A stretch of DNA of 64,000 bases from Bacteroidia bacterium. GTDB lineage: Bacteria; Bacteroidota; Bacteroidia; B-17B0; Aurantibacillaceae. The stretch covers positions 248,001 to 312,000 of the forward strand of contig JAEUTO010000005.1 in NCBI GenBank assembly GCA_016787785.1, in the 5' to 3' direction. Below are positions 20,911 through 38,100 of the stretch, piece after piece. The notes below the pieces were generated by a model. It was not told the origin of the DNA. It saw only the letters and a program-made list of their open reading frames with translations, and ran no database searches. Made by a program: the position numbers and the translations under genes. Every line of letters starts with the position of its first letter. Positions within the stretch are counted from its first letter, which is position 1.

Positions 20911-20967
20911 TGTTGTAATTTTAAATTTTAAATATCTGATGTTGGATGAAAAAATAATTTTTCACTT

Positions 20968-21876: not shown

Positions 21877-21907
21877 TTTTTATTTCTTAAATCTCATTTT
21901 TTAAATC

Positions 21908-22612: not shown

Positions 22613-23778
22613 TAGTTTAAGGCTTGTAAAATGTCATTTAAAATATCTTCCTTATTTTCTAATCCTATTGAGATGCGAATTAAGCCCGGTGTTATACCAA
22701 CCGTTTTTCGTTCTTCCTCAGAAAGTTTGCAGTGTGTGGACGAAGCCGGATGTGTTGCAATAGATCTTGCGTCTCCAAGATTTGGGGATATCTTGATCAT
22801 TTGTAATTTGTCTAAAAATTGTTTGGCAGCTTCGTAACCACCTTTAACGGTAATGGTAATAATACCACCGCCGGCTTTCATTTGTTTTTTTGCAATATTA
22901 TAATTTGGATGAGAAGGTAAAAATGGATATGAAACGTTCTCTAGTTTTGAATTCCCCTCTAAAGCTTTTGCAATATGTAACGCATTTTCACAATGGCGGT
23001 CCATTCTCAAGGCCAGAGTTTCTAAGCTCTTACTTAAGTTCCAGGCATTAAAAGGGCTTAACGATGGCCCGGTTAATCTGCCAAATAAATAGATGTCGTT
23101 TATCAATTCCTTTTTGCCTACTGTAATGCCACCCAAAACACGGCCTTGTCCATCCATATATTTTGTAGCCGAATGAACAACAAGATCGGCCCCGTATTTA
23201 ATGGGCTGTTGCAAATACGGCGTAGCAAAACAATTGTCTACAATAAAGAGTAGTTTGTGTTTTTTAGCGATCGTGTTTACCAATTCAAGGTCAATTAATT
23301 CAATGGCCGGATTAGTTGGCGTTTCTAAATAGATAAAACGTGTTTCTGGTTTTATTAATTTTTCTATCTCAGAAACATTGTTTGTATTGAAATAAGAATG
23401 CGAAATATTTAGTTTGGGAAAGTACTTTGTAAAAAGAGCATGCGTTGCACCAAAAACGGATGAGCAGGAAATAATATGATCACCCGATTTTAATAAAGCC
23501 ATGAATGTAGTATAAATAGCGGCCATGCCAGATGCGTATGCAACCCCTGCTTCTGCATGTTCGAGGATAGAAACTTTATTTACGAATTCGTTAACGTTTG
23601 GATTGGAGTAACGCGAATAAATAAAATCATCTGACTCATCATTAAATGCAGCGCGCATTTCTTCTGCAGTATCAAATACAAAGCTTGATGTTAAATAGAG
23701 TGGGGCAGAGTGCTCGTTATTCTGGCTACGTTCCATTTGTGCTCTTATGGCCTGGGTTTCAAATTTTTTATTTTCCAT
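22612..23778 (-). CDS. metZ: PLP-dependent O-acyl-homoserine sulfhydrylase
   Basis: The 388-residue protein belongs to the Cys/Met metabolism PLP family. It has YSRYSNPNVNEFVNKVS, EAGVAYASGMAAIYTTFMAL, YLETPTNPAIELIDLELV, and the PLP lysine in VHSATKYMDGQGRVLGG near residue 206. The Gly-rich GDARSIATHPASSTH and GLIRISIGLENKEDI segments are also present. Within a cluster with metX and the sulfide-producing genes it most likely makes homocysteine directly from sulfide and acylhomoserine. A cystathionine gamma-synthase role cannot be excluded. The gene symbol is assigned by context and is less sure than the family. Confidence 0.85.
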   Translation of the reverse strand: MENKKFETQAIRAQMERSQNNEHSAPLYLTSSFVFDTAEEMRAAFNDESDDFIYSRYSNPNVNEFVNKVSILEHAEAGVAYASGMAAIYTTFMALLKSGDHIISCSSVFGATHALFTKYFPKLNISHSYFNTNNVSEIEKLIKPETRFIYLETPTNPAIELIDLELVNTIAKKHKLLFIVDNCFATPYLQQPIKYGADLVVHSATKYMDGQGRVLGGITVGKKELINDIYLFGRLTGPSLSPFNAWNLSKSLETLALRMDRHCENALHIAKALEGNSKLENVSYPFLPSHPNYNIAKKQMKAGGGIITITVKGGYEAAKQFLDKLQMIKISPNLGDARSIATHPASSTHCKLSEEERKTVGITPGLIRISIGLENKEDILNDILQALN

Positions 23779-23779
23779 A

Positions 23780-24193
23780 TTAATTTACAGTCACTTTATA
23801 CGTTATTTTTGCTGTGGCCTCTAGTGTTTTTGCAACCGAACAATATTTATCTACAGATAATTGTACCGCGCGCTCCGCTTTGTCTTTGTCCACTTTTCCT
23901 TTTATTTTGAAATGCAGAGCGATGTTTTTAAACAAAGAAACGTCCTCTGTTTTTTCGCGATCTCCATCCACTTCAATTTCAAAAGACTCTATTTCCTGCT
24001 TTTGTTTTTTTAAGATCAATATTATGTCGATAGCGCTGCAACCTCCCAAAGCGGAAAGTAACAATTGCATGGGGCGCATTCCTTTTCCGTGCCCCCCAAT
24101 ATCCGGTGAAGCATCCATTAACAAAGAATTACCATCTTCATTAACGGCTTCCATTTTAAAATCGTCGTCGGTTCGTTTTATATTTATTCTCAT
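23780..24193 (-). CDS. OsmC family peroxide-related protein
   Basis: OsmC/Ohr proteins are small thiol peroxidases acting on organic hydroperoxides or other reactive sulfur species. The 137-residue protein has MQLLLSALGGCSAIDIILIL (first Cys near 55) and KYCSVAKTLEATAKI (second Cys near 117), the expected redox pair. It ends 1 bp from the sulfhydrylase gene and lies 30 bp below the ferredoxin-NADP reductase gene. A role in protecting the sulfur pathway is inferred only from location. Confidence 0.88.
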   Translation of the reverse strand: MRINIKRTDDDFKMEAVNEDGNSLLMDASPDIGGHGKGMRPMQLLLSALGGCSAIDIILILKKQKQEIESFEIEVDGDREKTEDVSLFKNIALHFKIKGKVDKDKAERAVQLSVDKYCSVAKTLEATAKITYKVTVN

Positions 24194-24223
24194 TTTGGTT
24201 TTTTACTCTAAATATAGTTTATT

Positions 24224-25234
24224 TTAGAATGCATTTACACCATTTACTGTTGTATATTTCATAGTATATTTTACGCCCGGATTCATATACTTGTAGGCGC
24301 TATGTGCCATTAGAGCTGCCTCGTGGAAACCACACAAGATCAATTTTAATTTGTTCTTATACGTATTAATATCTCCTATTGCATAAATGCCAGGGATATT
24401 GGTCGAATAATCTTCTGTATTTACTTCAATAGCATTTTTATCAATGTTTAGCCCCCAATGCTCTATCGGCCCTAATTTCGGGCTCAACCCAAATAGAGGA
24501 ATCAAATGATCTGTGTTAATAATGGTATGTTCATTTGTTTTACTATTTGTTATTGCCACGCTATTTAATTTGCCGTTGCCAGTTACATAGTTTAGGTTGG
24601 TGTTAAGGTGTAATTTTATCTTACCTTCTTCGGCCAACTTAAAAACTTTATTCACGTTATCCGGAGCTCCTCTGAATGATTCGCTTCTATGAACCAGTGT
24701 TAATTCAGAGCATACCTCACTTAAAAATATCGTCCAATCCAATGCGCTATCGCCACCACCGGCAATTACCATTTTTTTATTTCGGTATTTTTCCGGATCA
24801 AGGATCATGTAATTGATACCTTTTCCGTTCTCAAATTTTTCTAATCCTTCAACTTCCGGTTTGCGGGGTTCAAAGCAACCCAAGCCTCCGGCTATCACAA
24901 TTACTTTCGCCTGGATCTGTGTTCCCAAATTGGTTGTCAACAAAAAATCTTTTTCACTGCGTTTTTCTAAAGTTTCAATGCGTTCACCTAATGTGTAACC
25001 CGGATTAAATGGCTCGGCTTGCTTTACTAAATTATCTACTAACTCCTGCGCTAAAACACTAGGAAAACCTGGAATATCGTAAATAGGTTTTTTTGGATAG
25101 ATCTCTGAAAGTTGCCCCCCAACCTGAGGTAAGTAATCAATTAAATGACAGCGCATTTTTAAAAGCCCTGCTTCAAAAATGGCAAATAATGCTACCGGTC
25201 CTGCGCCTACTATGGCTATATCTGTTGTTATCAT
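24224..25234 (-). CDS. Ferredoxin-NADP reductase, thioredoxin-reductase type
   Basis: This flavoenzyme moves electrons between NADPH and ferredoxin. The 336 residues show an FAD-binding GAGPVALFAIFEAGLL, VGGQLSEIYPKKPIYDIPG, an NADP-binding GGGDSALDWTIFLSEV, and the C-terminal FAD motif IYAIGDINTY. The CxxC redox pair of thioredoxin reductase is absent, which places it with YumC-type ferredoxin reductases. In this cluster it probably supplies electrons to the ferredoxin-type sulfite reductase at 31394-33526. Confidence 0.9.
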   Translation of the reverse strand: MITTDIAIVGAGPVALFAIFEAGLLKMRCHLIDYLPQVGGQLSEIYPKKPIYDIPGFPSVLAQELVDNLVKQAEPFNPGYTLGERIETLEKRSEKDFLLTTNLGTQIQAKVIVIAGGLGCFEPRKPEVEGLEKFENGKGINYMILDPEKYRNKKMVIAGGGDSALDWTIFLSEVCSELTLVHRSESFRGAPDNVNKVFKLAEEGKIKLHLNTNLNYVTGNGKLNSVAITNSKTNEHTIINTDHLIPLFGLSPKLGPIEHWGLNIDKNAIEVNTEDYSTNIPGIYAIGDINTYKNKLKLILCGFHEAALMAHSAYKYMNPGVKYTMKYTTVNGVNAF

Positions 25235-25241
25235 ATTTTAT

Positions 25242-26705
25242 TTAGAAAAAAATTCTTTTTAAACTTATTATTATTACTACTAAGCCAACCAAGATCATTA
25301 TGGTTTTAGTTGGGATTTTATTGGCAATGAGCGCTCCAATGGGCGCAGCAATAACGCCCCCAATTATTAATCCTGCAATGATCATCCAATGCGTTAAACC
25401 AATTAAGGTTATAAATGTTAATGAACTTGCAAGTGCCACAAAAAATTCTGCAAGATTTACAGAACCAATTGTGTAACGGGCGTTTCTTCCACCTGCTATC
25501 AATGTAGAAGAAACAATTGGGCCCCAGCCACCACCGCCAATAGAATCTAATAAGCCGCCAAATAGTGCCAGCGGAAAAATTCGTTTTGTTTTTTTGCGGG
25601 CAGTATTTTTTTTAATTGCTTTATAAATTATGATCCCACCTAAAATTAAAGTATAAAGCGAAACCACTGGTTTAATAATGTAATTAAAATTTGAAAGGGA
25701 CGTTAAAATATACGCCCCTAAAATTGCACCTATAACTCCCGGAATCAATAAATTCTTGAATAATTTTTTATTCACGTTCCCGAATTTTAAATGCATTAAA
25801 CCAGAAACGCCACTTGTAAAAACTTCGGACGTGTGAACGCTAGCGCTTGACGCGGCCGGCGATATGCCAAAGGATAATAAAAAAGTTGTTGCCGTAATGC
25901 CGTAAGCCATGCCCAGCGCGCCATCTATTAATTGAGCTATAAATCCTGCAAGAATATAATATAAAATGGAAGAATCGAGAGACTGTGCAATTAAATACGA
26001 ATAACCACCAATAATATCCGGCGGCAAATAATAGCAAAGTAAATAACCAAAAATGATTAAAGCAGGAACAGAAAAGCCATAAATGAGCAAACGTTTTCTA
26101 CTTACCTTATTTAATTTTTCCGGGTTGTTTGATAATATTGAAGTTATTGCGTTTAACTTTTTTACTTTTGCCGAGAAATCGCCACTTAAATGTTTGCGAA
26201 CGTTTGTTAAGTTATCAATTGATTCGTTGATCTCTAAGGGGAAAGAATCTTCAAGTGTTTCGCGTATACGTTTTGCCATTGTTGGCGATTTACCGTTGGT
26301 AGAAACAGCAATTTTTACATTTCCTTTTTGAACGATGGAGCCTAAATAAAAATCACATTGCTCAGGCGTATCGGCTACATTTGCCAGGATATTCCTTTTC
26401 TGTGCTTCTTCTTTTATATGAATGCTGGTTTCTTTATTGTTAACAGCCACAATAACCAGGTCAATATTCTCAAGGTCCTCATTGTTAAAGATGCGCTCTT
26501 TGATAATTAAATTAGTATGTGCTTCAGCGAATTGTTTTATATCTTCACTAACAGTTGTTGCAATTAATGTAACTTTTGTAGCGGGACTATTATTTAATAC
26601 CGCAGTTACTTTTTCCAGACCAACTTTTCCTCCGCCAACTATAAGCACGCGAAAATTTTCCAATTTAAGGAATACAGGAAATAAATTATTTTTGACAGTT
26701 GTCAT
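25242..26705 (-). CDS. Fusion of precorrin-2 dehydrogenase (siroheme synthase N-domain) and TauE/SafE permease
   Basis: The 487 residues join two activities. Residues 1 to about 195 are a Met8/CysG-N type NAD-dependent dehydrogenase and ferrochelatase with LIVGGGKVGLEKVTAVLNN, VIVAVNNKETS, and AVSTNGKSPTMAKRIRETLE. Residues of about 205-487 form a TauE/SafE transporter with about eight membrane segments and two family repeats (ALGMAYGITATTFLLSFGIS and GGLLDSIGGGGWGPIVSSTL). With cobA this supplies siroheme for sulfite reductase. The membrane half may move sulfate, sulfite or another sulfur anion; direction and substrate are not visible. It overlaps no neighbour and lies 3 bp from the DUF2490 gene. 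Confidence 0.88.
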   Translation of the reverse strand: MTTVKNNLFPVFLKLENFRVLIVGGGKVGLEKVTAVLNNSPATKVTLIATTVSEDIKQFAEAHTNLIIKERIFNNEDLENIDLVIVAVNNKETSIHIKEEAQKRNILANVADTPEQCDFYLGSIVQKGNVKIAVSTNGKSPTMAKRIRETLEDSFPLEINESIDNLTNVRKHLSGDFSAKVKKLNAITSILSNNPEKLNKVSRKRLLIYGFSVPALIIFGYLLCYYLPPDIIGGYSYLIAQSLDSSILYYILAGFIAQLIDGALGMAYGITATTFLLSFGISPAASSASVHTSEVFTSGVSGLMHLKFGNVNKKLFKNLLIPGVIGAILGAYILTSLSNFNYIIKPVVSLYTLILGGIIIYKAIKKNTARKKTKRIFPLALFGGLLDSIGGGGWGPIVSSTLIAGGRNARYTIGSVNLAEFFVALASSLTFITLIGLTHWMIIAGLIIGGVIAAPIGALIANKIPTKTIMILVGLVVIIISLKRIFF

Positions 26706-26708
26706 TAA

Positions 26709-27455
26709 TTAGCTTTTTTCTTTTCTAAAATCAAGGTTGTGGTAGTAAAAGGCCCTTATGCAATTGCTGTTTATGAATTTACTTCCACTAGATGTTTGTT
26801 GAAAAACATTCATATAACCCAAGTGTATTGAATTGTGTTTGTTGATCTGGTAACCGATTCCGGCAAAGAACCTATTTTGATCGAAAACATTATAAGTGAT
26901 GGTTTTTCCAAAATTAAAAAACACTTCGTTGTTAAGAACCGCAAATATTTTTTTTGGAACTATCCCCGTTTTTGAAAATGGAATCAGTAACAGATAACTA
27001 TAACGTAAACGATTGGTGTAGCTATATTCATTTCTTGCTACATCATTAACAACAACCTGAATATAGCGTTGTTCAAGCCTTAATAATTGAATGCTTTGAA
27101 CACCATTATATTCTTGTTTTAAAAATAGTTGTTGCCACGGGCGATGTTCAATTTTGCCAGATCTTAAACCGCTTTCAGGAAAGTTATACGCTAAACAATA
27201 GCCGGCCATTATCCTGAAATTATCTGTTAAATATAAACTTAAAGCAACACGCCCTAAATCCTGTAACGGCCTGTTTGTAAATCTATCTGTCTGCCGGTAA
27301 TGTACGTCAGACCACACGCCAAAGCGTTTTGTAATTCGCGTTTGATTAAAATAGCCTAAAAAAATTCTTTCCTCATTTATTATCTGTTTTTGAGATGAGA
27401 TTTTTAAATAAACTAACGTTATAAGCGTTAAAAATATGTATAAACGTTTGTTCAT
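26709..27455 (-). CDS. DUF2490 family outer-membrane beta-barrel protein
   Basis: The protein has 248 residues with an N-terminal signal peptide and alternating hydrophobic strands (FGVWSDVHYRQTDRF, LRLEQRYIQ, YSYTNRLRYSYLLLIPF). The end carries an aromatic residue and short strands typical of outer-membrane barrels. DUF2490 proteins have no settled function. Its ATG shares one base with the stop codon of the TonB receptor gene, so the two are coupled and probably act together at the outer membrane. Confidence 0.75.
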   Translation of the reverse strand: MNKRLYIFLTLITLVYLKISSQKQIINEERIFLGYFNQTRITKRFGVWSDVHYRQTDRFTNRPLQDLGRVALSLYLTDNFRIMAGYCLAYNFPESGLRSGKIEHRPWQQLFLKQEYNGVQSIQLLRLEQRYIQVVVNDVARNEYSYTNRLRYSYLLLIPFSKTGIVPKKIFAVLNNEVFFNFGKTITYNVFDQNRFFAGIGYQINKHNSIHLGYMNVFQQTSSGSKFINSNCIRAFYYHNLDFRKEKS

Positions 27456-30331
27456 TATTTTATTTCCGAAGCTTGCTTGGTTTTAAATTTAAGATCGTAT
27501 GTTAAACTAAAATAATACAACGCGCCAATGGTTGGCCCCGCCGCATATTGCACATAACGCTTGTTTAAAATATTTGTACCGCCTAATTTTAAAGAGGTGT
27601 TGGCTTTGGTAAGTTTGTAGGATACTTGCGCATCAAATGTATTAAATGAAGGCACGTTACCGGTTGCCAATGGACTTTCCCATTTATAATTTTCCTGCCA
27701 TTTCCAGATCAGATTAAATCCAAAATTCTTAAACAGGTTACGGTTACCAAATTGAATGTTGGCAGCCCATTTAGGAGTATTAAAACCCGTGATGAAAATA
27801 TCATTCGCTTGTTGGGTTTTTAAGTCGTTGTAATTTACGTTTCCTGAGATCGTATAGGACTTGTAAAAATTATAACTTAATCTTATAGCAGAGCCATAAC
27901 TATAGTAAGTATTTCTTGCATTTGTAAATACCCGGTAACGTGTTTGTCTCGATTTTGTGTAAGCGTCAAATGCCGCGCTATCACTACCAACCGGACCAGT
28001 TGTGGGAACAGATACTTCTACTTGACCTAAGAAACCTTGCTCGATATTAAAATAAAGATCCCAATCTACAACAACCGTATTACCAAACAATACCGCTTTA
28101 TAACCTGCATCAAATGCCTGAATATGTTCTGGTTGCAACTGTGGTAAATTTGCAACAACCAAAGCGGATTTATTTTTAATGATCGCATTTGATTTTGTTG
28201 AACCATTTGCAATATCTGTATTTACCAAACTTGTAAAATCATTTATGGAAGCTTGTGTATACGAGTTCTCTAAAAAGCCCAAACCTTCGTTTACTTTTGG
28301 TAAGCCGCCAACCCTGCGTACACCTCCATTATTTACGAATGATAGTGCTTCAAATAATGCAGGAAAGCGATAACCGTTTTGATAAGAGATCCTGAAATTA
28401 TGTTGGTTTTTTAAAGTGTAAACAATTGCTGCCCGGGGATTTACCTTTCCATCAAAATCAAAATTCTTATCATAGCGTAACGACCCAACTAATTTTAATT
28501 TATCGTTGAATAATTTTTTTGTTACCTGCACAAAACCACCAACTTTGCCATAATAAACATCGTTACCTCCTGGTTGATTTCTTTCTGTTAGTGGTTTACT
28601 AAAATCTACGAAATTATTTCCATCGGGAATTACTTGATTTAAGCGGCCATCTGCGCCAATTAGAACATCAAATATCTTTGAAGTGTATTTACTAAGATCA
28701 TACAGAACATCACTATGGTACAATTTACTTTTTTGTATCAAAGCGGCACCACCAGTTAAGGGAGCATCCTTAATTAAGGAGGCGTGATCCCAGTTGTTAA
28801 TTGTAGTGATGGTATTTTTTGCATCATTAAATTCCTGGCTATCGCTTGTATATCTTCCTTCGTCCGCCTTTTCACGTGCTAATTGATTAGCGGTTACAAG
28901 GTCGGTACCGGAGCTCACCAAAGTTTGTAGAGTGGACTTGTATGTATTACCCCATGTTTTGTTATCTTTAAATGTAAGGTCTAAATTATCTGCTAAAGGT
29001 TTTAAATTATATGAATCACCGGTATTTTCAATAGATGTGTAAGCTCTGAATACCAGGGCGTCATTTTTTATTTCAACGGCATGATTTTGAAGCGAGGCGT
29101 TTTTTAACTGAATTTTGTTTCCGCGCTGGAAGATCCCGTCCATTTGCCCAAAACGATACTTATAACTTACTTCAGTTTTATCGGTCAATTTATAGTGAAG
29201 GGCACCGTCAAGCTTTATGTTTTTTACATTGGGATCAACCAGATCTTTTTCTTGAAAACCGGTACGACGAACATTGAAAGTTTGATTTTTTCCCTGATAT
29301 ACAATCGTAACCGGAACGTTGTTGTTACTTTCGTTTCCATAAATATTGTAAGCATCATAAGCCGGATTAGTTTCTCCGCTCCCGAATTGAGGAAAATTCG
29401 GATTTGAAGACGTGAGATTGTAAGGATTTTGATCTGTATGGTCACTTGATACCCAATCAACTCCCTGAAAATAACTTGCATTTACTTTATAGCCCCAACG
29501 ATCATTTTTTCCGGCCGTATTTGCAAAACGAAAAGCGGATTCTGACATGAAACTTAAAGCGTGATCAATATTATCGACATGGTTAGCACCTGTTCTTTGA
29601 TATACACTTAGACCTTTGTAATTGTAAGGATCTTTTGTAAATGAATTAGATAGACCGTTAATGGAGTTTACACCATATAATGCAGATGAGGAGCCAGGAA
29701 TGATCTCAACACTTTTAATATCTAATTCGTTTGGTCCAATTGTATTTCCTAATGACATGCCTAATGTTGGCGATTGAATATCAATCCCATCAACTAACTG
29801 CGTAAACCGGAAGTTATTGGGAGAATTAAACCCGCGCGTATTGGGAACCTTAAAGGTTAAGCTGCCTGTTGTCATTTGCACACCTTTTACATTTTCTAAC
29901 GCATCAAAAAATGTAGGCGCCGGCGTTTCGCGAATGGAAATAATATCCAACTTATCAATAGCAACAGGTGATTTTAAAATACTTTCTTCAGTACGTGAAG
30001 CAGATACAACTACTTCGTTTACCATTAGCACTTGCTGATTGAGTTGAAAATTTGTTTTTTGATTTTCATTTTCGATTAAAAACTCTTGTTGCTCAAATCC
30101 TATGTACGAAACAACAACGGTAAGAGGAAATTTAAGCGCAGTTTTTAAAATAAATTTACCTTCGCCGTCAGTTTGTGTAGCTGTCTGTGTTCCTTTTATC
30201 TGAATTACAGCGCCTGCTAACACTTCACCATTTGTTTTATCATGGATGATGCCGGATAATTGAATCAAATTATTTTGAGAAAAAAGTGATATAGAAAAGA
30301 GAAGTGCCAAAGCACTTAAAATTGTTTTCAT
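27455..30331 (-). CDS. TonB-dependent receptor in the sulfur cluster
   Basis: The 958-residue outer-membrane receptor has a signal peptide (MKTILSALALLFSISLFSQ), a carboxypeptidase-like beta domain at about 22-105, a plug domain (EEIxxS-like VVVSASRTEESILKSPVAI, FDALENVKGVQ, RGFNSPNNFRFTQLVDGI), and a long beta-barrel ending in YYFSLTYDLKFK. The substrate is unknown. Its place between cobA and the siroheme/TauE fusion suggests uptake of a sulfur-containing compound or of something needed by the sulfur pathway; that is inference. The 138 bp upstream hold two small hairpins but no riboswitch I recognise, so it may be co-transcribed with cobA. Confidence 0.88.
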   Translation of the reverse strand: MKTILSALALLFSISLFSQNNLIQLSGIIHDKTNGEVLAGAVIQIKGTQTATQTDGEGKFILKTALKFPLTVVVSYIGFEQQEFLIENENQKTNFQLNQQVLMVNEVVVSASRTEESILKSPVAIDKLDIISIRETPAPTFFDALENVKGVQMTTGSLTFKVPNTRGFNSPNNFRFTQLVDGIDIQSPTLGMSLGNTIGPNELDIKSVEIIPGSSSALYGVNSINGLSNSFTKDPYNYKGLSVYQRTGANHVDNIDHALSFMSESAFRFANTAGKNDRWGYKVNASYFQGVDWVSSDHTDQNPYNLTSSNPNFPQFGSGETNPAYDAYNIYGNESNNNVPVTIVYQGKNQTFNVRRTGFQEKDLVDPNVKNIKLDGALHYKLTDKTEVSYKYRFGQMDGIFQRGNKIQLKNASLQNHAVEIKNDALVFRAYTSIENTGDSYNLKPLADNLDLTFKDNKTWGNTYKSTLQTLVSSGTDLVTANQLAREKADEGRYTSDSQEFNDAKNTITTINNWDHASLIKDAPLTGGAALIQKSKLYHSDVLYDLSKYTSKIFDVLIGADGRLNQVIPDGNNFVDFSKPLTERNQPGGNDVYYGKVGGFVQVTKKLFNDKLKLVGSLRYDKNFDFDGKVNPRAAIVYTLKNQHNFRISYQNGYRFPALFEALSFVNNGGVRRVGGLPKVNEGLGFLENSYTQASINDFTSLVNTDIANGSTKSNAIIKNKSALVVANLPQLQPEHIQAFDAGYKAVLFGNTVVVDWDLYFNIEQGFLGQVEVSVPTTGPVGSDSAAFDAYTKSRQTRYRVFTNARNTYYSYGSAIRLSYNFYKSYTISGNVNYNDLKTQQANDIFITGFNTPKWAANIQFGNRNLFKNFGFNLIWKWQENYKWESPLATGNVPSFNTFDAQVSYKLTKANTSLKLGGTNILNKRYVQYAAGPTIGALYYFSLTYDLKFKTKQASEIK

Positions 30332-30469
30332 AAGTTTGTTTAAAAAATTTATTTTGTTAATATTTTAGAAATTTGTACGTGATGGGTAACATCAAGTTTA
30401 ACCTTAATGAAAAGTTAAGACAACATCGTTCAAAATAAACCAAAGTAAATATTTTATATTTTGTACTCA

Positions 30470-31240
30470 TCAGTTAAAAAGATATCTGGAATTAACGCGC
30501 GCTAATGAAAATGCCCTATGCTGTTTTACTACTTCTCCAATAATGATAACTGCAGGCGCCTGTATGTTTTCTTTTTTAGAAATACCCACTATTGTATCAA
30601 TGGTTCCTAATGCAATTGCCTGATTTGGCAATGAACCATTTTGAATTAATGCAACCGCTGTATTTCCTTTGTTTTCTTTTTTAAACACTTCTGTAATTTC
30701 TTCCAATTTGGAAAGGCCCATTAAGATCACCACGGTTGCCTTTGTTTTTGCGGCTAATAACACATCTTGTGATAATTTATTTTCACGGGTTGTTCCGGTA
30801 ATTACCCAAAAGCTCTCGCTAGCGCCACGATGAGTGACAGGGATCCCACTTAAGGCGGGAACGCCGATTGAGCTTGAAATTCCGGGTACAACCTGCGTTT
30901 CAATATTAAAGGCATAGGCGTAATCAATTTCTTCCTGGCCACGTCCAAAAACAAAAGAATCGCCACCTTTTAAACGCACAACGTGGCCGTGAGTAAAAGC
31001 AAGATCAATTATTAAAGAATTTATTTGTTCTTGTGTGTATGCATGTTGATGATTGCGCTTACCAACATAAATTTTTAATGAATTAGCGGGGGCGAATTTT
31101 AATAACTCTTTGTTTACAAGGGCATCATATAAAACAACATCTGCCGCTTTTAGTGCGTTTAAACCTTTAAGGGTTATTAATTCAACATCGCCTGGACCGG
31201 CGCCTACAAGGGTTAGTTTTGGATTTATTGTTTGTGACAT
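30470..31240 (-). CDS. cobA: Uroporphyrinogen-III C-methyltransferase
   Basis: The enzyme methylates uroporphyrinogen III twice with SAM to give precorrin-2, the siroheme precursor. From the ATG at 31240 it has 256 residues: LVGAGPGDVELITLKG at the N-terminus, VVRLKGGDSFVFGRG, VPGISSSIGVPALSGIPVTHRG, and ATVVILMGLSKLEEI. An upstream TTG would add 24 residues but would lie inside the leader hairpin, so I reject it. The dehydrogenase/ferrochelatase steps are in the fusion gene at 25242. The 153-bp leader contains a poly-Cys ORF and a possible RNA switch. Confidence 0.95.
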   Translation of the reverse strand: MSQTINPKLTLVGAGPGDVELITLKGLNALKAADVVLYDALVNKELLKFAPANSLKIYVGKRNHQHAYTQEQINSLIIDLAFTHGHVVRLKGGDSFVFGRGQEEIDYAYAFNIETQVVPGISSSIGVPALSGIPVTHRGASESFWVITGTTRENKLSQDVLLAAKTKATVVILMGLSKLEEITEVFKKENKGNTAVALIQNGSLPNQAIALGTIDTIVGISKKENIQAPAVIIIGEVVKQHRAFSLARVNSRYLFN

Positions 31241-31249
31241 GTTTTTTTT

Positions 31250-31324
31250 ATTTAACTGTTTATGATTTGAATTTTTCGGTTTTATATTTAACTGAGGCGC
31301 CGAAAATTTCAAACTCAGTTAAAT
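31250..31324 (-). promoter_or_regulatory. Three-element pairing switch in the cobA leader
   Basis: In the RNA direction, element I is ATTTAACTGAG (31324-31314), starting at the last base of the poly-Cys ORF stop codon. Element II is CTCAGTTAAAT (31296-31286), a perfect 11-bp partner of I. Element III is CAGTTAAAT (31258-31250), a perfect 9-bp partner of the same element I, ending nine bases before the cobA ATG. I:II pairing leaves the A-rich ribosome site free; I:III pairing would bury it. No T-run follows, so control of translation is likelier than termination. The sequence elements are seen; the mechanism is inference. Confidence 0.6.
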
Positions 31325-31392
31325 TAGTGTATTGGTTGGCAACAACAACAACAGCAACAACACATTTTGTTTTTATACATCCGCATGTTCAT
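31324..31392 (-). CDS. Poly-cysteine short ORF (candidate leader peptide)
   Basis: A 22-codon ORF starts 1 bp after the sulfite reductase stop (TAA-T-ATG). It has four in-frame ATG codons (31392, 31386, 31380, 31365), then eight consecutive Cys codons (TGT/TGC, 31362-31339), then Gln-Pro-Ile-His-stop. It is followed at once by the hairpin elements before cobA. Poly-Cys short ORFs acting as cysteine-responsive attenuators are known in mycobacteria; a similar role here is inference. Alternatives are a metal-binding micropeptide or a chance GTT trinucleotide run. The position inside a cysteine-pathway operon argues for a sensor. Confidence 0.6.
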   Translation of the reverse strand: MNMRMYKNKMCCCCCCCCQPIH

Positions 31393-31393
31393 A

Positions 31394-33526
31394 TTACGAC
31401 GTTTTTTCCAGTTCAGTTTCTTTGATATACTTTGCTCTTAATTGTTTCACTTCTTTAACAAAGCGATCTGCTTGCGAAAAATAGTCTTCTGCAAAGTATT
31501 CCGAAGGTTCATGTTTATTTATTTGTAAAACCAATTCTTTAAAAGAAGTGTCATAGCTAAATGGTTTGTCTGTTTCAAATAATTTATCGAAATCAGAGAT
31601 TACCCCCTGTTGCGTATTTACATGAATTGATCTGTCGAGTAATAATGCTTTAGCAGCGTTTATAAAAGCAGCGTATGAATAATAAATACTATCGCCGAAA
31701 TATTTTTCTTCAAATGCTTCTGCTGCAAAGGCTAATTTTTCTTCAGCTTCATAAAACAACGTAGCAACAAGATCAATTACCACGCCGGCGCATTCGCCAA
31801 CACCAATGGCAGTTGCAAATTTTTCATCTTGTCCCCAATCAATAAGATCTTCTGGCTTTAACGTTGAATTATCTGCTAACGGTTTTAATAGTTGATAAAA
31901 ATAGTCTTTACCTTTTTTATCATAATACGAATTAAAGTACTCGCCTTCTACAGCGTTTTTTTCGAAATCACTAAGTAACGAACGTAAAACATCGGGCCCG
32001 CGTTTACTGGCTACTTTAATTATTTTATCAGAGATCCTTCCTTTGCCGTTTCCAACAGTGCCCCCGCCCAACAGAACCTGTAGGGCAGGAACAACAGTTG
32101 TACCAACTTTAAAAGAACTACCGTGAAAACCTATTTGCGCTAAGCCGTGTTGCCCGCAAGCATTCATACAGCCGCTAATTTTAATTTTTATATCATGATT
32201 GTAAAGTAGATCGGGAAACTCGCTGTAAATAACCTCCTCAAGCGCAACAGAAATATGTGTACTGTTTGAAATTGCTAAATTACACGTGTCGGTTCCCGGG
32301 CAAGCAGTAATATCGCCAACAGAATCAAATCCGGGACTTGCTAAGTTAATTTTTTCAAGTTCGTTAAATAAGAATGGTAATTCACTTTGTGTTACATTGC
32401 GTAATAAAAATCCTTGATTAATGGTAATACGTACATCTTCATCATCAGCATATTTTTTTACAACATTTACAAATTTTCGTACTGCTTCACTTGAAATATT
32501 TCCAAGTTGTATTTTTATGTAAACGCCAGCAAGGTTTTTTTGTTTTTGTTTAAAGGTATTTGTGTTTAACCATCTGTTAAAGTCCACCTCATTAATTGCC
32601 GGCTTTTCTTTTAAAAGAGAAAAGCGAGAAGTTGTACTTACGCTATTATTTTCGGTAGCGATCTTAAATTCTTTAACCAACAACGCTTTTTCTTCCTCTC
32701 TTGTTAATGCTAAGAAGGTTTCCAAGCCAATTTTATTGATCAGGTATTTTAACCGTGCTTTATGACGGCTGGCCCTTTCACCATTTCTATCAAATACACG
32801 TAAGGTTGCTTCAACAAATGGAATAAGTTTATCTTCATGCAGGAATTCAAAAGCTGTTTGCGCTAAAAAAGGCTGCGCGCCAAGTCCGCCGCCTATTAAG
32901 ACTTTAAAGCCTCTTTGGCCATTCTTTATTTTTGGAATAAAACCGAGATCGTGTATATATGTAAAAGCTGTATCTTTTTCATTGTTGGAAAAGGCCATTT
33001 TTATTTTCCTGCCCATTTCCTGGCAAAAGGGTTTGCGCAGGAAATAAGCAAACAATGCATGAGCGTATGGCGAAACGTCGAACAATTCGTTTGGGTCAAT
33101 TCCTGCTTCAGGCGAAGCGGTAATATTTCTAACGGTATTGCCACATGCTTCGCGTAAGGTAATATCGTCTTGTTCTAATTTCGCCCAAAGTTCTGGTGTG
33201 CGATCTAAACTTACATGATGGATCTGTATATCCTGTCTTGTAGTCAAATGTAAATTGCCGTTTGAATATTCATCACTTATATCAGCAATACGCAATAATT
33301 GTTTTACACTTAATTTGCCAAACGGCAGTTTAATGCGGATCATTTGTACACCTTGCTGACGCTGGCCATAAACGCCACGGGCCAGGCGCAAACTCCTGAA
33401 TTTTTCTTCATCGATCTTTCCTTCTTTAAAAGCACGGATCTTTTTATCAAGATCGATTATATCTTTTTCGATCAGTGCCTTTGAAGAGGAGTTAATATTT
33501 TCTAATTCTGTTCTAAAACTTTGCAT
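31394..33526 (-). CDS. Ferredoxin-type sulfite reductase with C-terminal extension
   Basis: The enzyme reduces sulfite to sulfide with siroheme and a 4Fe-4S cluster. The 710 residues show RLARGVYGQRQQGVQMIRIK, LHLTTRQDIQIHHV, GNTVRNITASPEAG and two half-repeats. The cluster cysteines are in TACPGTDTCNLAIS (near 410) and SGCMNACGQHGLAQIGFHG (near 453). Residues of about 560-710 form an extra helical domain (GECAGVVIDLVATLFYEAEE, YSYAAFINAAKALLLDR) that looks HEPN-like and is absent from plain sulfite reductases. Nitrite as substrate cannot be excluded by sequence, but siroheme, ferredoxin reductase and cys/met neighbours point to sulfite. Confidence 0.9.
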   Translation of the reverse strand: MQSFRTELENINSSSKALIEKDIIDLDKKIRAFKEGKIDEEKFRSLRLARGVYGQRQQGVQMIRIKLPFGKLSVKQLLRIADISDEYSNGNLHLTTRQDIQIHHVSLDRTPELWAKLEQDDITLREACGNTVRNITASPEAGIDPNELFDVSPYAHALFAYFLRKPFCQEMGRKIKMAFSNNEKDTAFTYIHDLGFIPKIKNGQRGFKVLIGGGLGAQPFLAQTAFEFLHEDKLIPFVEATLRVFDRNGERASRHKARLKYLINKIGLETFLALTREEEKALLVKEFKIATENNSVSTTSRFSLLKEKPAINEVDFNRWLNTNTFKQKQKNLAGVYIKIQLGNISSEAVRKFVNVVKKYADDEDVRITINQGFLLRNVTQSELPFLFNELEKINLASPGFDSVGDITACPGTDTCNLAISNSTHISVALEEVIYSEFPDLLYNHDIKIKISGCMNACGQHGLAQIGFHGSSFKVGTTVVPALQVLLGGGTVGNGKGRISDKIIKVASKRGPDVLRSLLSDFEKNAVEGEYFNSYYDKKGKDYFYQLLKPLADNSTLKPEDLIDWGQDEKFATAIGVGECAGVVIDLVATLFYEAEEKLAFAAEAFEEKYFGDSIYYSYAAFINAAKALLLDRSIHVNTQQGVISDFDKLFETDKPFSYDTSFKELVLQINKHEPSEYFAEDYFSQADRFVKEVKQLRAKYIKETELEKTS

Positions 33527-33531
33527 GGCAA

Positions 33532-34410
33532 TTATTTTGTAGCATTATATAAATGATACCAATCTTCGTTACTTAATTTTACAGCATAAGCCGTTGCTGC
33601 GTTCTTAATACGTTTTTTATCGGGGCTACCAATTATCGGTAAAGCGCCCAATTTATGCAACCAGGCTACTGCAGCCTGTTCAATATTAATATTGTGTTTT
33701 CTAGCTACTTCAGTTAAGGCTTTTCTAACTTTAACAGCTTTTTTATCTTTTCCGCTTAATATTCTTCCACCCGCTAATGGCGCATAAGCCATTGGTTTGC
33801 TATATTGTTCCTTAATAAAATCCAAACGACCATCATCGATAGCGTTAGTTTGCAAAAGATTTAATTCAAGATGGTTTGTTATGATGGGCTGCGATAAATG
33901 AGAGGCTAACAAACGATGCTGAAATACATTAAAATTGGAAACACCGATGAATTTTATTTTCCCGTTTATTAAAAGTTTGGTTAAAGCCGAAGCGGTTTCT
34001 TCAGCATTGTACAAAGGATCATAATGCTCCAGTAAAAAGATATCAATATAATCTGTGTTTAACTTTTTTAGCGAATCATTTACACTTTTAGTAATGTGCT
34101 CTGCGCTCAAATCGTAATATTCTGCCTTTTTATTTTTTCCGGAAAATTTTCTGATACCTGCTTTTGTAGAAATAATTACATCTTCGCGCTTTATAGAACT
34201 TGAAGAAATGGCTTTACCAAAAAGCTCTTCTATTTTACCATCGGAATAATTATCACTGTGGTCAAATGTATTTACACCTAACTCCAAATTATAATTAACA
34301 ATTTCTTCTACCTTTTTTTGATTGGCCAATGCGGCCGTGCTGTATCTCCAGAAACTATAAATAGCTGCCGATACTTCCGGACCAGATTCGCTTATATAAA
34401 TTTTTTCCAT
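33532..34410 (-). CDS. Aldo/keto reductase family oxidoreductase
   Basis: The 292-residue TIM-barrel protein belongs to the NADPH-dependent aldo/keto reductases. LGVNTFDHSDNYSDGKIEEL carries the Asp and Tyr of the active site, VIISTKAGIRKF the Lys, and IDIFLLEHYDPL a His in the usual place. IKFIGVSNFNVFQHRLL and LGALPIIGSPDKKRIKNA line the cofactor site. Substrate is unknown. It lies 5 bp upstream of sulfite reductase and 3 bp downstream of the peroxiredoxin gene, clearly in the same operon. Confidence 0.88.
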   Translation of the reverse strand: MEKIYISESGPEVSAAIYSFWRYSTAALANQKKVEEIVNYNLELGVNTFDHSDNYSDGKIEELFGKAISSSSIKREDVIISTKAGIRKFSGKNKKAEYYDLSAEHITKSVNDSLKKLNTDYIDIFLLEHYDPLYNAEETASALTKLLINGKIKFIGVSNFNVFQHRLLASHLSQPIITNHLELNLLQTNAIDDGRLDFIKEQYSKPMAYAPLAGGRILSGKDKKAVKVRKALTEVARKHNINIEQAAVAWLHKLGALPIIGSPDKKRIKNAATAYAVKLSNEDWYHLYNATK

Positions 34411-34413
34411 GGC

Positions 34414-35049
34414 TTAAATGTTTGGTTGAGGCGTTGTTCTTAAATACGGTTTTACTTCTTTAAATCCTTTTGGAAATTTTGCCGGAATATCTTCGGTTTT
34501 AATCGAAGGTATTACAACAACATCCTCCCCATGTTTCCAGTTTGCAGGTGTTGCTACGCTGTAATTGGCCGTTAATTGTAAAGAATCTATTACACGTAAT
34601 ATCTCATCAAAATTTCTTCCGGTTGATGCCGGGTAAGTAATTAATAATTTTACCTTTTTAGCCGGATCAATTATTACAACTGATCTAACAGTAAATTTAT
34701 CGGACGCATTTGGATGAACAAAACCATATAATTTTGACACTTCAAAGATCGGGTCGGCAATGATGGGATAATTTACTTTTGTATTTTGCGTTTCGTTGAT
34801 ATCATTTATCCATTTTAAATGCGACTCTACGGGGTCGACACTTAATGCAATTACTTTTACGTTGCGTTTATCGAATTCTGATTTAAGCTTTGCCACTGTT
34901 CCTAGTTCGGTGGTGCAAACCGGCGTAAAATCTGCCGGATGAGAAAATAGGATTCCCCAGCTATTTCCTAAAAATTCGTAAAAATTTATTTTTCCTTCGC
35001 TTGACTCTGCTACAAAGTCGGGTGCGCTATCTCCTAATCTAATTGACAT
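34414..35049 (-). CDS. Peroxiredoxin, 1-Cys (Prx6) type
   Basis: The 211-residue protein reduces peroxides through a single reactive Cys. The N-terminal thioredoxin-like domain holds LFSHPADFTPVCTTELGTVA with the peroxidatic Cys near residue 45, followed by KVIALSVDPVESHLKWI. The C-terminal extension (TPANWKHGEDVVVIPSI) is typical of the Prx6 group and there is no clear resolving Cys. It sits between homoserine dehydrogenase and an aldo/keto reductase, probably protecting against oxidants when sulfide chemistry is active. Confidence 0.93.
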   Translation of the reverse strand: MSIRLGDSAPDFVAESSEGKINFYEFLGNSWGILFSHPADFTPVCTTELGTVAKLKSEFDKRNVKVIALSVDPVESHLKWINDINETQNTKVNYPIIADPIFEVSKLYGFVHPNASDKFTVRSVVIIDPAKKVKLLITYPASTGRNFDEILRVIDSLQLTANYSVATPANWKHGEDVVVIPSIKTEDIPAKFPKGFKEVKPYLRTTPQPNI

Positions 35050-35062
35050 GATTCTTTATTTT

Positions 35063-36316
35063 TTAATTTGTAATCAATTGTTTTTCTTTATTTAAAATAG
35101 AACTTTTCTTTTTTTCTTTTAAGGTTACTGTATCGTTTACCAGCGAAATGAATAAATTATTTTTTAAAATATAATCGCGGTTTTTTAATAAGGTTTGCAG
35201 ATTAACCTTGCCGATAATATAATTATAATCTGTTCCGTTATATTTTTCAGTGATCTCATCAAATTCAAATTTATTAAGATCAATAATGGAGTTGTAGCGG
35301 AAGTAAACATTTACCAAAACATCGTTTGTAAAATTAGAAGCATGTTTTTGAACATGTTTTTTGTATTCATACTTGTATCCATGTGATAAGGCAGATATAT
35401 CAGATAGTACCGCAGCACCCGTTGGGTAGCTGCCCGCACCTTTGCCTTGTAAAAATTGCTCTCCGGAGAATTTGCCCTCTACAATTACTCCATTAAATTC
35501 ATTCTCAACATTAAATAATTGATTTGTGTCCTTTACAAAACGGGGCGCCACTAAAACGCTAACTTTATCACCTTCCAGGCGTTGAATGACCGGAGTTAAT
35601 TTTATTTTATAGCCCTTTTCTGAAGCATATTTGATATCATTATTGTGTAATGTAGTAATGCCAATATTCAAAACATCATCCGGTTTAATAATTAATCCAA
35701 AAGCATGAAGTGCAATTATCACCGCTTTATATTTCGGATCAAATCCCTCTACATCGCTTGTTGGATCTGTTTCTGCAAAACCTTGTTCCTGCGCTTGTTT
35801 TAACGCGGTAGCATACGATAATTTTTCGTTAATGGTTTTGGATAGAATATAATTGGTTGTACCATTAAAGATTCCTGAAACTTTTTCCAGTTCTTCGTTA
35901 TCAAAATACTCTTCTAAAGTTCTGATAATTGGAATGCTTCCACCTGCCGATGCTTCGTACAATAATGATACATTATTTTCCTGCTGCAACTTATATAATT
36001 CTTCGAGGTGAAGTGCCAATAATTTTTTATTGGCTGTAACAACATGTTTTCCTTTTTTTAAGGCTTCGCTTACAATATTAAAAGCTTCCTCAGCATCGTC
36101 AATTAATTCAACGATCACATCGATCTCCGGATTGTTTAAGATCTCGTATTTATCAAAAGTGATAAGGTTTTTTGAAACACTGCGTTCTTTGGTTTTATCC
36201 TTAACTGCAATTTTTACAATGTCTGCTTTAAAGCCGGTGCTATTATTTAATACATAGTATAAACCCTGGCCAACACAGCCAAATCCGAATAAACCTATTT
36301 TTAATTTCTTTGCCAT
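35063..36316 (-). CDS. hom: Homoserine dehydrogenase
   Basis: The enzyme reduces aspartate semialdehyde to homoserine, supplying the carbon skeleton for methionine. The 417 residues begin with the NAD site LKIGLFGFGCVGQGLYYVLN. They continue with GKHVVTANKKLLA, the catalytic segment SGIFNGTTNYILSKT, EADPTSDVEG-like ETDPTSDVEGFDPKYKAVI and PTGAAVLSDISAL. The last 80 residues do not look like a standard ACT domain to me. It lies 5 bp downstream of metX, so this copy is likely dedicated to methionine synthesis under the SAM riboswitch. Confidence 0.94.
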   Translation of the reverse strand: MAKKLKIGLFGFGCVGQGLYYVLNNSTGFKADIVKIAVKDKTKERSVSKNLITFDKYEILNNPEIDVIVELIDDAEEAFNIVSEALKKGKHVVTANKKLLALHLEELYKLQQENNVSLLYEASAGGSIPIIRTLEEYFDNEELEKVSGIFNGTTNYILSKTINEKLSYATALKQAQEQGFAETDPTSDVEGFDPKYKAVIIALHAFGLIIKPDDVLNIGITTLHNNDIKYASEKGYKIKLTPVIQRLEGDKVSVLVAPRFVKDTNQLFNVENEFNGVIVEGKFSGEQFLQGKGAGSYPTGAAVLSDISALSHGYKYEYKKHVQKHASNFTNDVLVNVYFRYNSIIDLNKFEFDEITEKYNGTDYNYIIGKVNLQTLLKNRDYILKNNLFISLVNDTVTLKEKKKSSILNKEKQLITN

Positions 36317-36321
36317 AGTTT

Positions 36322-37386
36322 CTAGTTATTTGTTTTTTGTAAATTAAGTTTGTCTTTTTTTATTTTTTCGTTTGCGTAAAAACCCGATATTACTTTGGTC
36401 AATTTTTCAGTTTCAATTAAAAAGCCATCGTGACCATAAGCTGAATCGATTTCAGAGTAAACAGCGTTTTTTATATTTTTTGCCAGAAATTTTTGTTCGT
36501 TCAATGGGAATAAAATATCAGTAGTTAATCCAATCACAAGCGTGGTCGCTTTAATTTGTTTTAAGGCCTGCTCTTTTGTTTCGGTTCTGTTGCGCGCTAC
36601 GTTGTGGCTGTCCATTGCGTCTAACAATCTTACATAGGAGTATGCGTTAAAGCGGTTTACCAGCTTTTCGCCTTGGTAGCGTTGGTAAGAAGCCGACGCA
36701 TAATTATTAGTTTTATTATAGTTTTCATCTTTTTGTGTTTCATCATAGGTTGCATAGCCCCTGTAGCTTAAAAGGGCAATGCTTCTGGCAGCAGATAGTC
36801 CTTTTTTAGCGGCGTCAATTGTATTTGAATAATAAGTTCTGTCAGCTTTTATTGCCAGACGTTGCGATTCGTTAAAGGCAATACCCCATGGCGAATGTTG
36901 CGCGTTGGTAGCTATAAGAATTAAATTCTCGACAAGCTCTTTGTTTTGCAAGGCCCACTCCATTGCTATTTGACCACCTTGTGAGCCGCCAATTAACGTA
37001 TGGATCTTGTCAATTCGTAAATGATCCTTTAAAAGTTCGAACGAAGCAACAATGTCTTTGATAGTTATTTGAGGGAAATAATTGAACCAGGCCTCTTTAG
37101 TTTCGTTATTGATACTTAAAGGACCGGTGGTGCCATAGCAAGAACCTAAATTATTTGCGCACACAATAAAATAGTCTTTTGGATTGTAAAGGTCGTTCTC
37201 GCCGAATAAACCTTTCCACCAATCAAACACATTACTGTTTGCTGTAAGAGCATGTGCAACCCAAATAACATTGTTGCGCTCTTTATTTAAGGTTCCAAAT
37301 GTTTGGTAAGCAATGTCAATTCCCGGAAGTGATTGCCCGTTTTCTAACTGGAATCGTTTTGAATATGTAAACGTTGATAAGCTCAT
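36322..37386 (-). CDS. metX: Homoserine O-acetyltransferase
   Basis: MetX transfers an acyl group (normally acetyl) from acyl-CoA to homoserine, the first committed step to methionine. The 354-residue alpha/beta hydrolase has NVIWVAHALTANSNVFDWW, the nucleophile in LIGGSQGGQIAMEWALQ near residue 135, GLTTDILFPLNEQ with the Asp, and SAYGHDGFLIE with the His. It is the second full-length gene after the SAM-I riboswitch and is followed closely by hom. Confidence 0.96.
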   Translation of the reverse strand: MSLSTFTYSKRFQLENGQSLPGIDIAYQTFGTLNKERNNVIWVAHALTANSNVFDWWKGLFGENDLYNPKDYFIVCANNLGSCYGTTGPLSINNETKEAWFNYFPQITIKDIVASFELLKDHLRIDKIHTLIGGSQGGQIAMEWALQNKELVENLILIATNAQHSPWGIAFNESQRLAIKADRTYYSNTIDAAKKGLSAARSIALLSYRGYATYDETQKDENYNKTNNYASASYQRYQGEKLVNRFNAYSYVRLLDAMDSHNVARNRTETKEQALKQIKATTLVIGLTTDILFPLNEQKFLAKNIKNAVYSEIDSAYGHDGFLIETEKLTKVISGFYANEKIKKDKLNLQKTNN

Positions 37387-37401: not shown

Positions 37402-37641
37402 TTAGTTATTAAATATGTTGCCGGAAAAGATCAATTGCTTTTTCTCCAGAGAGGTTAAAAAATTAACTTCATTAGCTAAACGATTTACATGCGAAGGAAT
37501 GATGTTTAAAGGGTACGCACCACCGCGTTGTTCAATTCCAAATTCGGCCTGCACCGCTAAAAAATTTATGTGTTCTTCGTCGCCCAGTAAATTAACACTG
37601 TTTAGTACACTTATATATTTTGGTTTATTGTTGTTATTCAT
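37402..37641 (-). CDS. Small unknown protein in the methionine operon
   Basis: I do not recognise this 79-residue protein. It starts with a short Asn-rich stretch and has a hydrophilic, mixed-charge body with two Ile/Leu/Phe-rich segments. No Cys, no signal peptide and no membrane segment are visible. It lies 15 bp upstream of metX and 134 bp downstream of the Met/Cys-rich short ORF, so it must share the riboswitch transcript. A small regulator or partner of MetX is possible but not shown by sequence. Confidence 0.65.
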   Translation of the reverse strand: MNNNNKPKYISVLNSVNLLGDEEHINFLAVQAEFGIEQRGGAYPLNIIPSHVNRLANEVNFLTSLEKKQLIFSGNIFNN

Positions 37642-37714
37642 GATTTCTTGTTTTTAATGATTAGTAAATTTGTAATTGAAGAATGATGTGAAATTCTAAA
37701 TAGCAGAATACATC

Positions 37715-37747
37715 AAAATTTGCCTTGGGTTGCCAAGGTTAAATTTT
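37715..37747 (-). other. Hairpin between the Met/Cys-rich short ORF and the met genes
   Basis: AAAATTT-AA-CCTTGG-CAAC-CCAAGG-C-AAATTTT folds into 13 base pairs with one small internal loop. Only four T end the 3' arm and they are paired, so it is a poor intrinsic terminator. A second weaker hairpin (GATGTATTC with GAATTTCACATC) follows. The layout of short ORF, hairpin, gene parallels that in front of cobA. Confidence 0.5.
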
Positions 37748-37775
37748 CCAATAAAATTTTTTGAGGAAAATTAGC

Positions 37776-37895
37776 TTAGCACATGCAGCAACAGCAGCAC
37801 ATACAACAAGCCATCATTAAAAATGAAGAAAGGAGATTAGAGTTAAATCCTTTTGACTGAGAGTCGTTTTGTTTTTTTGATTTTGTGTGTTTCAT
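37776..37895 (-). CDS. Met/Cys-rich short ORF under SAM riboswitch
   Basis: A 39-codon ORF starts with ATG at 37895, nine bases beyond the P1 stem of the SAM-I riboswitch, behind an A-rich ribosome site. The first 26 residues are basic and polar (MKHTKSKKQNDSQSKGFNSN and on). The last 13 are MMACCMCCCCCMC: eight Cys, four Met and one Ala. This enrichment in just the two sulfur amino acids, next to a SAM sensor, suggests a leader peptide whose translation reports Cys-tRNA and Met-tRNA supply. A metal-binding micropeptide is the main alternative. Confidence 0.6.
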   Translation of the reverse strand: MKHTKSKKQNDSQSKGFNSNLLSSFLMMACCMCCCCCMC

Positions 37896-37904
37896 TTTTT
37901 CTTT

Positions 37905-38040
37905 TTTTAATTTATTTTTCTCCGTTTTTCATCGGAGTAGGAGTTGGCACCTGTTTTCCAATCCCGATAAATCGGGACTTTTAGTTGGTTGCCAGTGGGT
38001 CAATGAGCCTATTCTCTCGCCACTTCTTAATAAATTAAAA
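37905..38040 (-). promoter_or_regulatory. SAM-I (S-box) riboswitch
   Basis: All conserved S-box parts are visible on the minus strand. P1 is a 12-bp stem (38040-38029 with 37916-37905). P2 is AGTGG/CCACT with the GAGAGAATAGG bulge region, followed by GGCAACC (37993-37987). P3 is TCCCGAT/ATCGGGA (37977-37962). GGTGCCAACTCC begins at 37951. P4 is CTCCG/CGGAG (37937-37920). There is no terminator with a T-run. The 3' strand of P1 adjoins the A-rich ribosome site of the short ORF at 37895, so SAM binding probably blocks translation initiation. Confidence 0.9.
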
Positions 38041-38067
38041 CACACATTGGGTGGTTTTAATCTTCGA

Positions 38068-38100
38068 CAAATTTAAGACATTTATTTTTATACTTCCAAA
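38068..38100 (-). promoter_or_regulatory. Promoter of the SAM-regulated met/sulfur operon
   Basis: TTTG at 38100-38097 and TAAATTTG at 38075-38068 are separated by 21 bp, an exact fit to the Bacteroidota -33/-7 consensus. Transcription would begin near 38062, about 20 bases before the riboswitch P1 stem. Confidence 0.75.

Follow-up and report, generated by a model that had tools for sequence, protein, structure and literature searches.

Does a SAM-I riboswitch (S-box) that is followed directly by a short Cys/Met-rich ORF act on that ORF, such that one transcript would sense SAM by RNA and Cys/Met by translation? A sequence-only reading raised this question for a stretch of 64,000 nt (hereafter the window), and we addressed it by gathering the S-boxes of the genus (40 genomes) and of the GTDB family (87 genomes) and comparing their loci. 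Little is understood of how Bacteroidota control methionine and cysteine, and the locus offers a concrete candidate for a two-input switch at the head of a sulfur assimilation operon.

Aptamer, leader ORF and operon

The locus was described as a complete S-box with the 3' strand of P1 next to the start of a 39-codon ORF, and both statements hold. The Rfam search returns a full-length aptamer (71.3 bits against the RF00162 gathering score of 44.4, model positions 1-108), and its P1 helix, formed by AATTTATT (38036-38029) and AATAAATT (37916-37909), ends 13 nt 5' of the leader ATG (see Table 1 for all features). The genomic context is the one expected for RF00162, with the aptamer 5' of metX and a met/cys cluster. 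The motif TAnnTTTG, which we take to be the Bacteroidota promoter element (its consensus is from general knowledge), precedes the aptamer by 35-45 nt in 46 of the 48 loci that have a leader (see below), so the stretch from the promoter to P1 is probably transcribed.

Table 1. Features of the locus, in minus-strand order
Feature	Coordinates	Strand	Basis or remark
Bacteroidota-type promoter: TTTG (38100-38097), 21 nt, TAAATTTG (38075-38068)	38068..38100	-	sequence
5' hairpin ATTAAAAC (38061-38054) : GTTTTAAT (38041-38034)	38034..38061	-	candidate anti-P1; overlaps first 3 nt of P1
P1 extension (P0), 5' strand TGTGTGTTTT	38037..38046	-	partner is leader codons 2-5
SAM-I (S-box) riboswitch aptamer	37909..38036	-	RF00162, full model
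Leader ORF, 39 codons, MKHTKSKKQNDSQSKGFNSNLLSSFLMMACCMCCCCCMC	37776..37895	-	kept at 48/50 metX/metY S-box loci of the family
P0, 3' strand (leader codons AAA CAC ACA)	37884..37892	-	compensatory variants and permutation
Putative sensor tail, last 13 leader codons (8 Cys, 4 Met)	37779..37817	-	family-wide composition
Candidate anti-TIR segment ATGATGGCTTGTT, start of Cys run	37805..37817	-	partner 37652-37640
Three hairpins: AATTTTCC:GGAAAATT (37772-37742), CCTTGG:CCAAGG (37738-37723), 37714-37685	37685..37772	-	RNAfold
Translation initiation region (TIR) of next gene, AACAAGAAATCAT, running into ATG at 37641	37640..37652	-	predicted to be masked by leader
79-aa protein, first gene 3' of leader	37402..37641	-	32-member alignment, six invariant residues
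metX, homoserine O-acetyltransferase	36322..37386	-	TIGR01392 2.4e-103, below curated cut-off
Rest of co-directional Met/Cys cluster	19666..36316	-	NCBIfam for most genes
Second leader ORF MNMRMYKNKMCCCCCCCCQPIH, between sulfite reductase and cobA	31324..31392	-	counterparts in G003, G009, G023
RNA elements of cobA leader	31240..31323	-	helices and repeated segment

The leader ORF ends in MMACCMCCCCCMC, and the eight Cys and four Met that had been counted among its last 13 residues are correct. The window has 937 ORFs of 15-60 codons, and at least six Cys in the last 13 residues are found only in this leader and in the poly-Cys ORF before cobA; the other runs of five Cys codons in the genome all lie within larger ORFs. 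A chance ORF is ruled out by this count (2/937) together with the conservation described below.

On the minus strand the aptamer is followed by the leader, the 79-aa ORF, metX and a series of methionine and sulfate-assimilation genes that share one direction over 18 kb, including homoserine dehydrogenase, peroxiredoxin, aldo-keto reductase, sulfite/nitrite reductase, cobA, a TonB receptor, cysG-N/permease, an O-succinylhomoserine-sulfhydrylase-like enzyme, cysH, cysD and a cysN-like GTPase (the TonB receptor and the GTPase were named from sequence, not by NCBIfam). Judged from gene order and strand only, the cluster would form a single transcript. The 79-aa protein has no NCBIfam match and no Pfam match above cut-off, and its AlphaFold model is weak (mean pLDDT 71, pTM 0.43; three helices). 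We note that a family of 68-81 aa (NLIG..FL..QA.YG.AQRGG...RLVSDVN.L.S.E.K.LIFS..IF.N) is usually found between the leader and metX/metY.

Distribution of the leader

A single fixed criterion was used for all S-boxes of the family (start codon at most 60 nt away, fewer than 70 codons, at least three Cys in the last 14 residues). By this criterion a leader is present family-wide at 48 of the 50 S-boxes 5' of metX/metY and at 0 of 55 other S-boxes, mostly those of metH; two late-start metY loci were assigned by eye, and most of nine unassigned other loci were read as metH. One of the two metX/metY S-boxes that lack a leader lies in a run of N, and the other is followed by a degenerate tail (CMWCGM...). 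Neither of the two things named beforehand as counting against the proposal, absence of such an ORF in close relatives or frame-disrupting changes in its tail, was seen: in the 48 loci the tail is open and Cys-rich in all of them, and length changes are in-frame.

Leaders range from 29 to 54 codons. Across the family Cys makes up 50% and Met 23% of the last 13 residues, as compared to 0.6% Cys and 0.5% Met in the body. Cys is the dominant tail residue, and tails vary between loci (e.g. CMCCCCCMC, CCCDSTCCPLC and CCCCCCC). Both TGT and TGC are used for the tail Cys, which argues against a tail kept only as RNA; a hairpin within the tail can be drawn in many loci, only slightly better than in synonymous permutations (mean z -0.53). 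The distance from aptamer to ATG is 3-15 nt in 48/48 loci, leaving no room for an intrinsic terminator directly 3' of the aptamer. The locus therefore has what is expected of an amino-acid leader attenuator, i.e. a conserved short ORF rich in codons for the pathway product and located 5' of the biosynthetic genes.

The tail DNA pattern was found in 7 of 395 genomes of the class (the reversed control gave 0 matches), and among named GTDB contigs the combination of S-box, leader and metX is also present in a Crocinitomicaceae MAG (L102), which belongs to another Bacteroidota family. The 29 best-scoring S-boxes of other Bacteroidia families have no leader; nearly all of them are 5' of metH, metB/C etc., and the sole metY case among them also has none, so the leader is not a general S-box feature. 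In other Bacteroidota, leaders without a detectable S-box are located 5' of metY (L085, L104), of a homoserine dehydrogenase gene (L123) and of a porin-like gene. Because it is found without an S-box 5' of other genes, the leader appears to be a stand-alone sensor module, and because S-boxes and leaders also occur apart, it appears to have been joined, as a separate module, to a particular S-box lineage.

Several minor observations were made on these sets. The S-box-less leaders 5' of homoserine dehydrogenase or the porin-like gene (L123/L199 and L200) have a CCCC-M-C tail and a common upstream stretch, GGTAGATTATATATATTTGC, possibly a regulator site together with a promoter. In the genomes that we compared, the aptamer of metH S-boxes (L002 etc.) is longer, at about 170 nt, and no leader follows it; some of these genomes have a gene for a methyltransferase-like or an ATP-binding protein between the S-box and metH.

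Pairings at the two start codons

Two structures can be drawn for the sequence around P1. The first is a candidate anti-P1 hairpin, which is found in co-varying forms (ATTAAAAC:GTTTTAAT, ATTAATTAC:GTAATTAAT and ATTAGTTGC:GTAACTAAT); when partners were permuted among loci, the real pairs averaged -5.35 kcal/mol as compared to -3.76 kcal/mol, and 0/20000 permutations equalled the real value (1/20000 on 19 non-redundant loci). The second is an extension of P1, in which the adjoining sequence GTGTGTTTT pairs with leader codons 2-5 (AAACACAC). Compensatory variants of the extension include GTGCGTTTT:AAAACGCAC (G012) and GTGTAGTT:AACTACAC (G019), and in other genera CGTAATT pairs instead with AATTACG of the leader 5'UTR; partner permutation gave 0/20000 equal to the real set, and 19/20000 on 19 non-redundant loci.

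With P1 formed, the A-rich initiation region and the AUG of the window RNA are predicted to lie in a bulge between two helices, and across sub-clade g1a the leader AUG is likewise unpaired in a bulge. Since the helix can continue beyond P1 into codons 2-5 or, in other genera, the 5'UTR, a SAM-stabilised P1 would bracket the leader start codon. Through its extension, the aptamer helix thus overlaps or masks the initiation region of the ORF, the arrangement that defines a riboswitch-controlled uORF, and we infer from these pairings that SAM lowers leader initiation.

The other end of the leader is complementary to the next gene. The codons that lead into the Cys run, and those that open it, can pair with the start region of that gene, about 130 nt away, with a mean duplex energy over 48 loci of -11.67 as compared to -10.43 (sd 0.30) in permutations, 0/10000 of which were equal. 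Within the leader, only the stretch from about -78 to -12 relative to its stop codon gives a signal (best z -7.7, at -54..-30). Among windows set by the next ATG the signal is strongest at -26..+6 (z -5.8) and drops to about -2.1 in the overlapping next one and about -2 in one distant window, and windows set by the leader stop gave nothing beyond z -2.0. Examples include CTTTTTCATG:CATGAAAAAG (G057), TTTTTGCATG:CATGCAAAAA (G019) and CCATCTGTT:AACAGATGG (G030), and in G082 the pair TTCATGAT:ATCATGAA is changed on both sides to TTCATAAT:ATTATGAA. Such compensated changes carry more weight than the p-values, because permutations do not remove shared ancestry.

The pairing is clear in genera g10, g5, g4 and g7 and in the window's own sub-clade, g1a; the signal is weak in sub-clade g1b and was not detected in g3, g6, g8 or the tested loci outside the family. 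In the window itself two short helices, ATGAT:ATCAT and CTTGTT:AACAAG, flank an internal loop (z about -2.2). When a ribosome footprint was set on the first Cys of the tail, the start region was predicted to become more accessible, by over 0.1, in 24/48 loci, and in no locus less accessible; with the footprint at the leader stop codon, a gain of this size was predicted in 9/48 loci. RNA structures that a stalled ribosome would change, as expected of an attenuator, are therefore predicted in five clades including that of the window.

The two kinds of Met codons in the tail have to be read differently. The FMMA part lies just 5' of the Cys run, and its Met codons pair with the CAT at the next start; their conservation may be owed partly to this RNA pairing and is ambiguous as a sign of Met sensing. 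The Met codons of CMCCCCCMC fit Met sensing.

A candidate mechanism and its alternatives

Comparison among loci establishes the parts, their order, their conservation and their co-varying pairings, and on these grounds we lean, with modest confidence, towards reading the locus as a riboswitch-gated translational attenuator. At high SAM the aptamer would be folded, P1 and its extension would bracket the leader start codon, and the leader would be poorly translated; the codons before the Cys run of the untranslated leader would then pair with the start region of the 79-aa ORF, and the operon would be off. At low SAM the 5' hairpin would displace P1, the A-rich leader start would be free and ribosomes would enter the leader. 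If Cys-tRNA (possibly also Met-tRNA) were short at the same time, ribosomes would stall in the tail and cover the masking strand, releasing the downstream start, and if Cys-tRNA were charged, they would run through the leader and the mask would re-form. Operon expression would therefore require low SAM and low Cys together. What we infer from sequence is that SAM binds the aptamer, that this blocks leader initiation and that ribosomes stall, as well as the direction of the output and any part played by Met. Several observations weigh against this reading: the clades with a weak or undetected leader-to-start pairing, the unpaired leader AUG of g1a, and the terminator-like hairpins of some loci (see below).

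The dual sensing that had been suggested for this transcript gains comparative support from the P1 extension and from the pairing of the leader tail with the next start. The complete AND gate, in which initiation of a leader with a Cys/Met tail is the expression platform of a SAM-I aptamer and the output is stall-dependent unmasking of the next start, is held tentatively, at slightly below an even chance; on this reading one operon would respond to SAM itself and to Cys/Met through the charging of their tRNAs. The apparent expression platform of the riboswitch would then be a leader peptide, and the family provides about 50 natural variants with swappable pairings.

The stall could instead act on transcription: hairpins 3' of the leader stop (CCTTGG:CCAAGG and its neighbours) or Rho would terminate unless ribosomes stall at Cys codons, and the S-box would decide leader translation. 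Terminator-like hairpins between the leader and the next gene are found in 9/48 loci (0.7 expected), which makes such attenuation possible in some loci; the post-stop hairpin of the window shares bases with the extended form of the next hairpin, and leader-peptide attenuation has been proposed in Flavobacterium psychrophilum (PMC9723704). We nevertheless consider this explanation unlikely, since a consensus scan identified no minus-strand intrinsic terminator in the window, and co-variation links the leader to the start region downstream, not to the intervening hairpins.

Two independent controls in series, the S-box acting on the whole transcript and the leader sensing Cys with no gating by the aptamer, would agree with the leaders that have no S-box and with the metH S-boxes that have no leader. 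This arrangement is quite improbable given the short aptamer-to-ATG spacing kept in every leader locus, the reach of the P1 extension into leader codons or 5'UTR (with compensatory variants) and the lack of space for a terminator between aptamer and leader. It is hardly credible that the product of the ORF is itself a functional small protein under SAM control, such as a Cys-rich carrier of metal or thiols: the ORF is conserved and its dense Cys could bind metal, but its body varies in sequence and length and is nearly free of Cys and Met, its tails differ between loci, it has no Pfam or NCBIfam match above cut-off, and it is always first, adjoining Met/Cys genes.

The riboswitch-gated attenuator shares features with several known systems. 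Like other members of RF00162, this aptamer scores in full above the gathering score and lies 5' of methionine biosynthesis genes; here the leader start codon comes first on its 3' side, not a terminator or the ribosome-binding site of a structural gene. In Mycobacterium tuberculosis ppe2, a B12 riboswitch controls a uORF, which in turn controls the next gene (PMC11260477). The first target is again translation of a short upstream ORF, but the ligand differs, the uORF overlaps the following gene and acts through termination-reinitiation, and it has no amino-acid-sensing tail. The mgtL leader of the enterobacterial mgtA 5' region, a Pro-codon-rich peptide within a regulatory RNA (PMC11552253), is similar in being rich in particular codons inside such an RNA, so two inputs may be combined there as well; it has no classical metabolite aptamer, its output is via Rho, and Mg2+ sensing may act through translation itself. 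In erm, a ribosome that stalls in the leader exposes the otherwise masked start of the gene behind it (PMC11264731), and a leader stall would likewise unmask the next start here; the trigger of erm/cat-type translational attenuators is an antibiotic, whereas here it would be a shortage of charged Cys/Met tRNA, and a riboswitch precedes the leader.

For the cys operons of mycobacteria, poly-Cys leaders have been predicted (PMC1262725), and PMC13236596 cites them as cysteine-responsive attenuators (Canestrari et al. 2020). They too are short ORFs with Cys codons near the stop, 5' of Cys genes. The present leaders differ in phylum, in having Met in the tail and in the explicit pairing of the codons before the Cys run with the next start. 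Mycobacterial ones start leaderless, whereas here the 5'UTR bears an S-box: a promoter-like motif lies about 170 nt 5' of the ATG, with the aptamer between. Poly-Cys leader attenuation has been described in Actinobacteria, and the present loci would add another phylum. Riboswitches that control a uORF are known, and so are poly-Cys attenuators, each on its own; no report of an S-box/SAM-I aptamer combined with a Cys/Met leader was found among open-access papers.

The sequence-only reading had also pointed to a poly-Cys ORF before cobA, as a second leader in the same regulon. That ORF is present and conserved in three relatives, and these counterparts, together with the RNA elements around it, support two leaders in one regulon. 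Helix 1, 3' of its stop codon, pairs TTTAACTGAG (31323-31314) with CTCAGTTAAA (31296-31287) and is changed on both sides to AGTGTTTG:CAAACACTT in G023; helix 2, which interlocks with helix 1, pairs GAAATTTTCGG (31310-31300) with CCGAAAAATTC (31279-31269). The segment CAGTTAAAT (31258-31250) is a repeat of the third segment and lies just 5' of the likely cobA ATG (31240), and the Cys codons of this leader can pair near the cobA start. The TTG listed as the cobA start (31312) is probably too far upstream, the ATG at 31240 being the likelier start.
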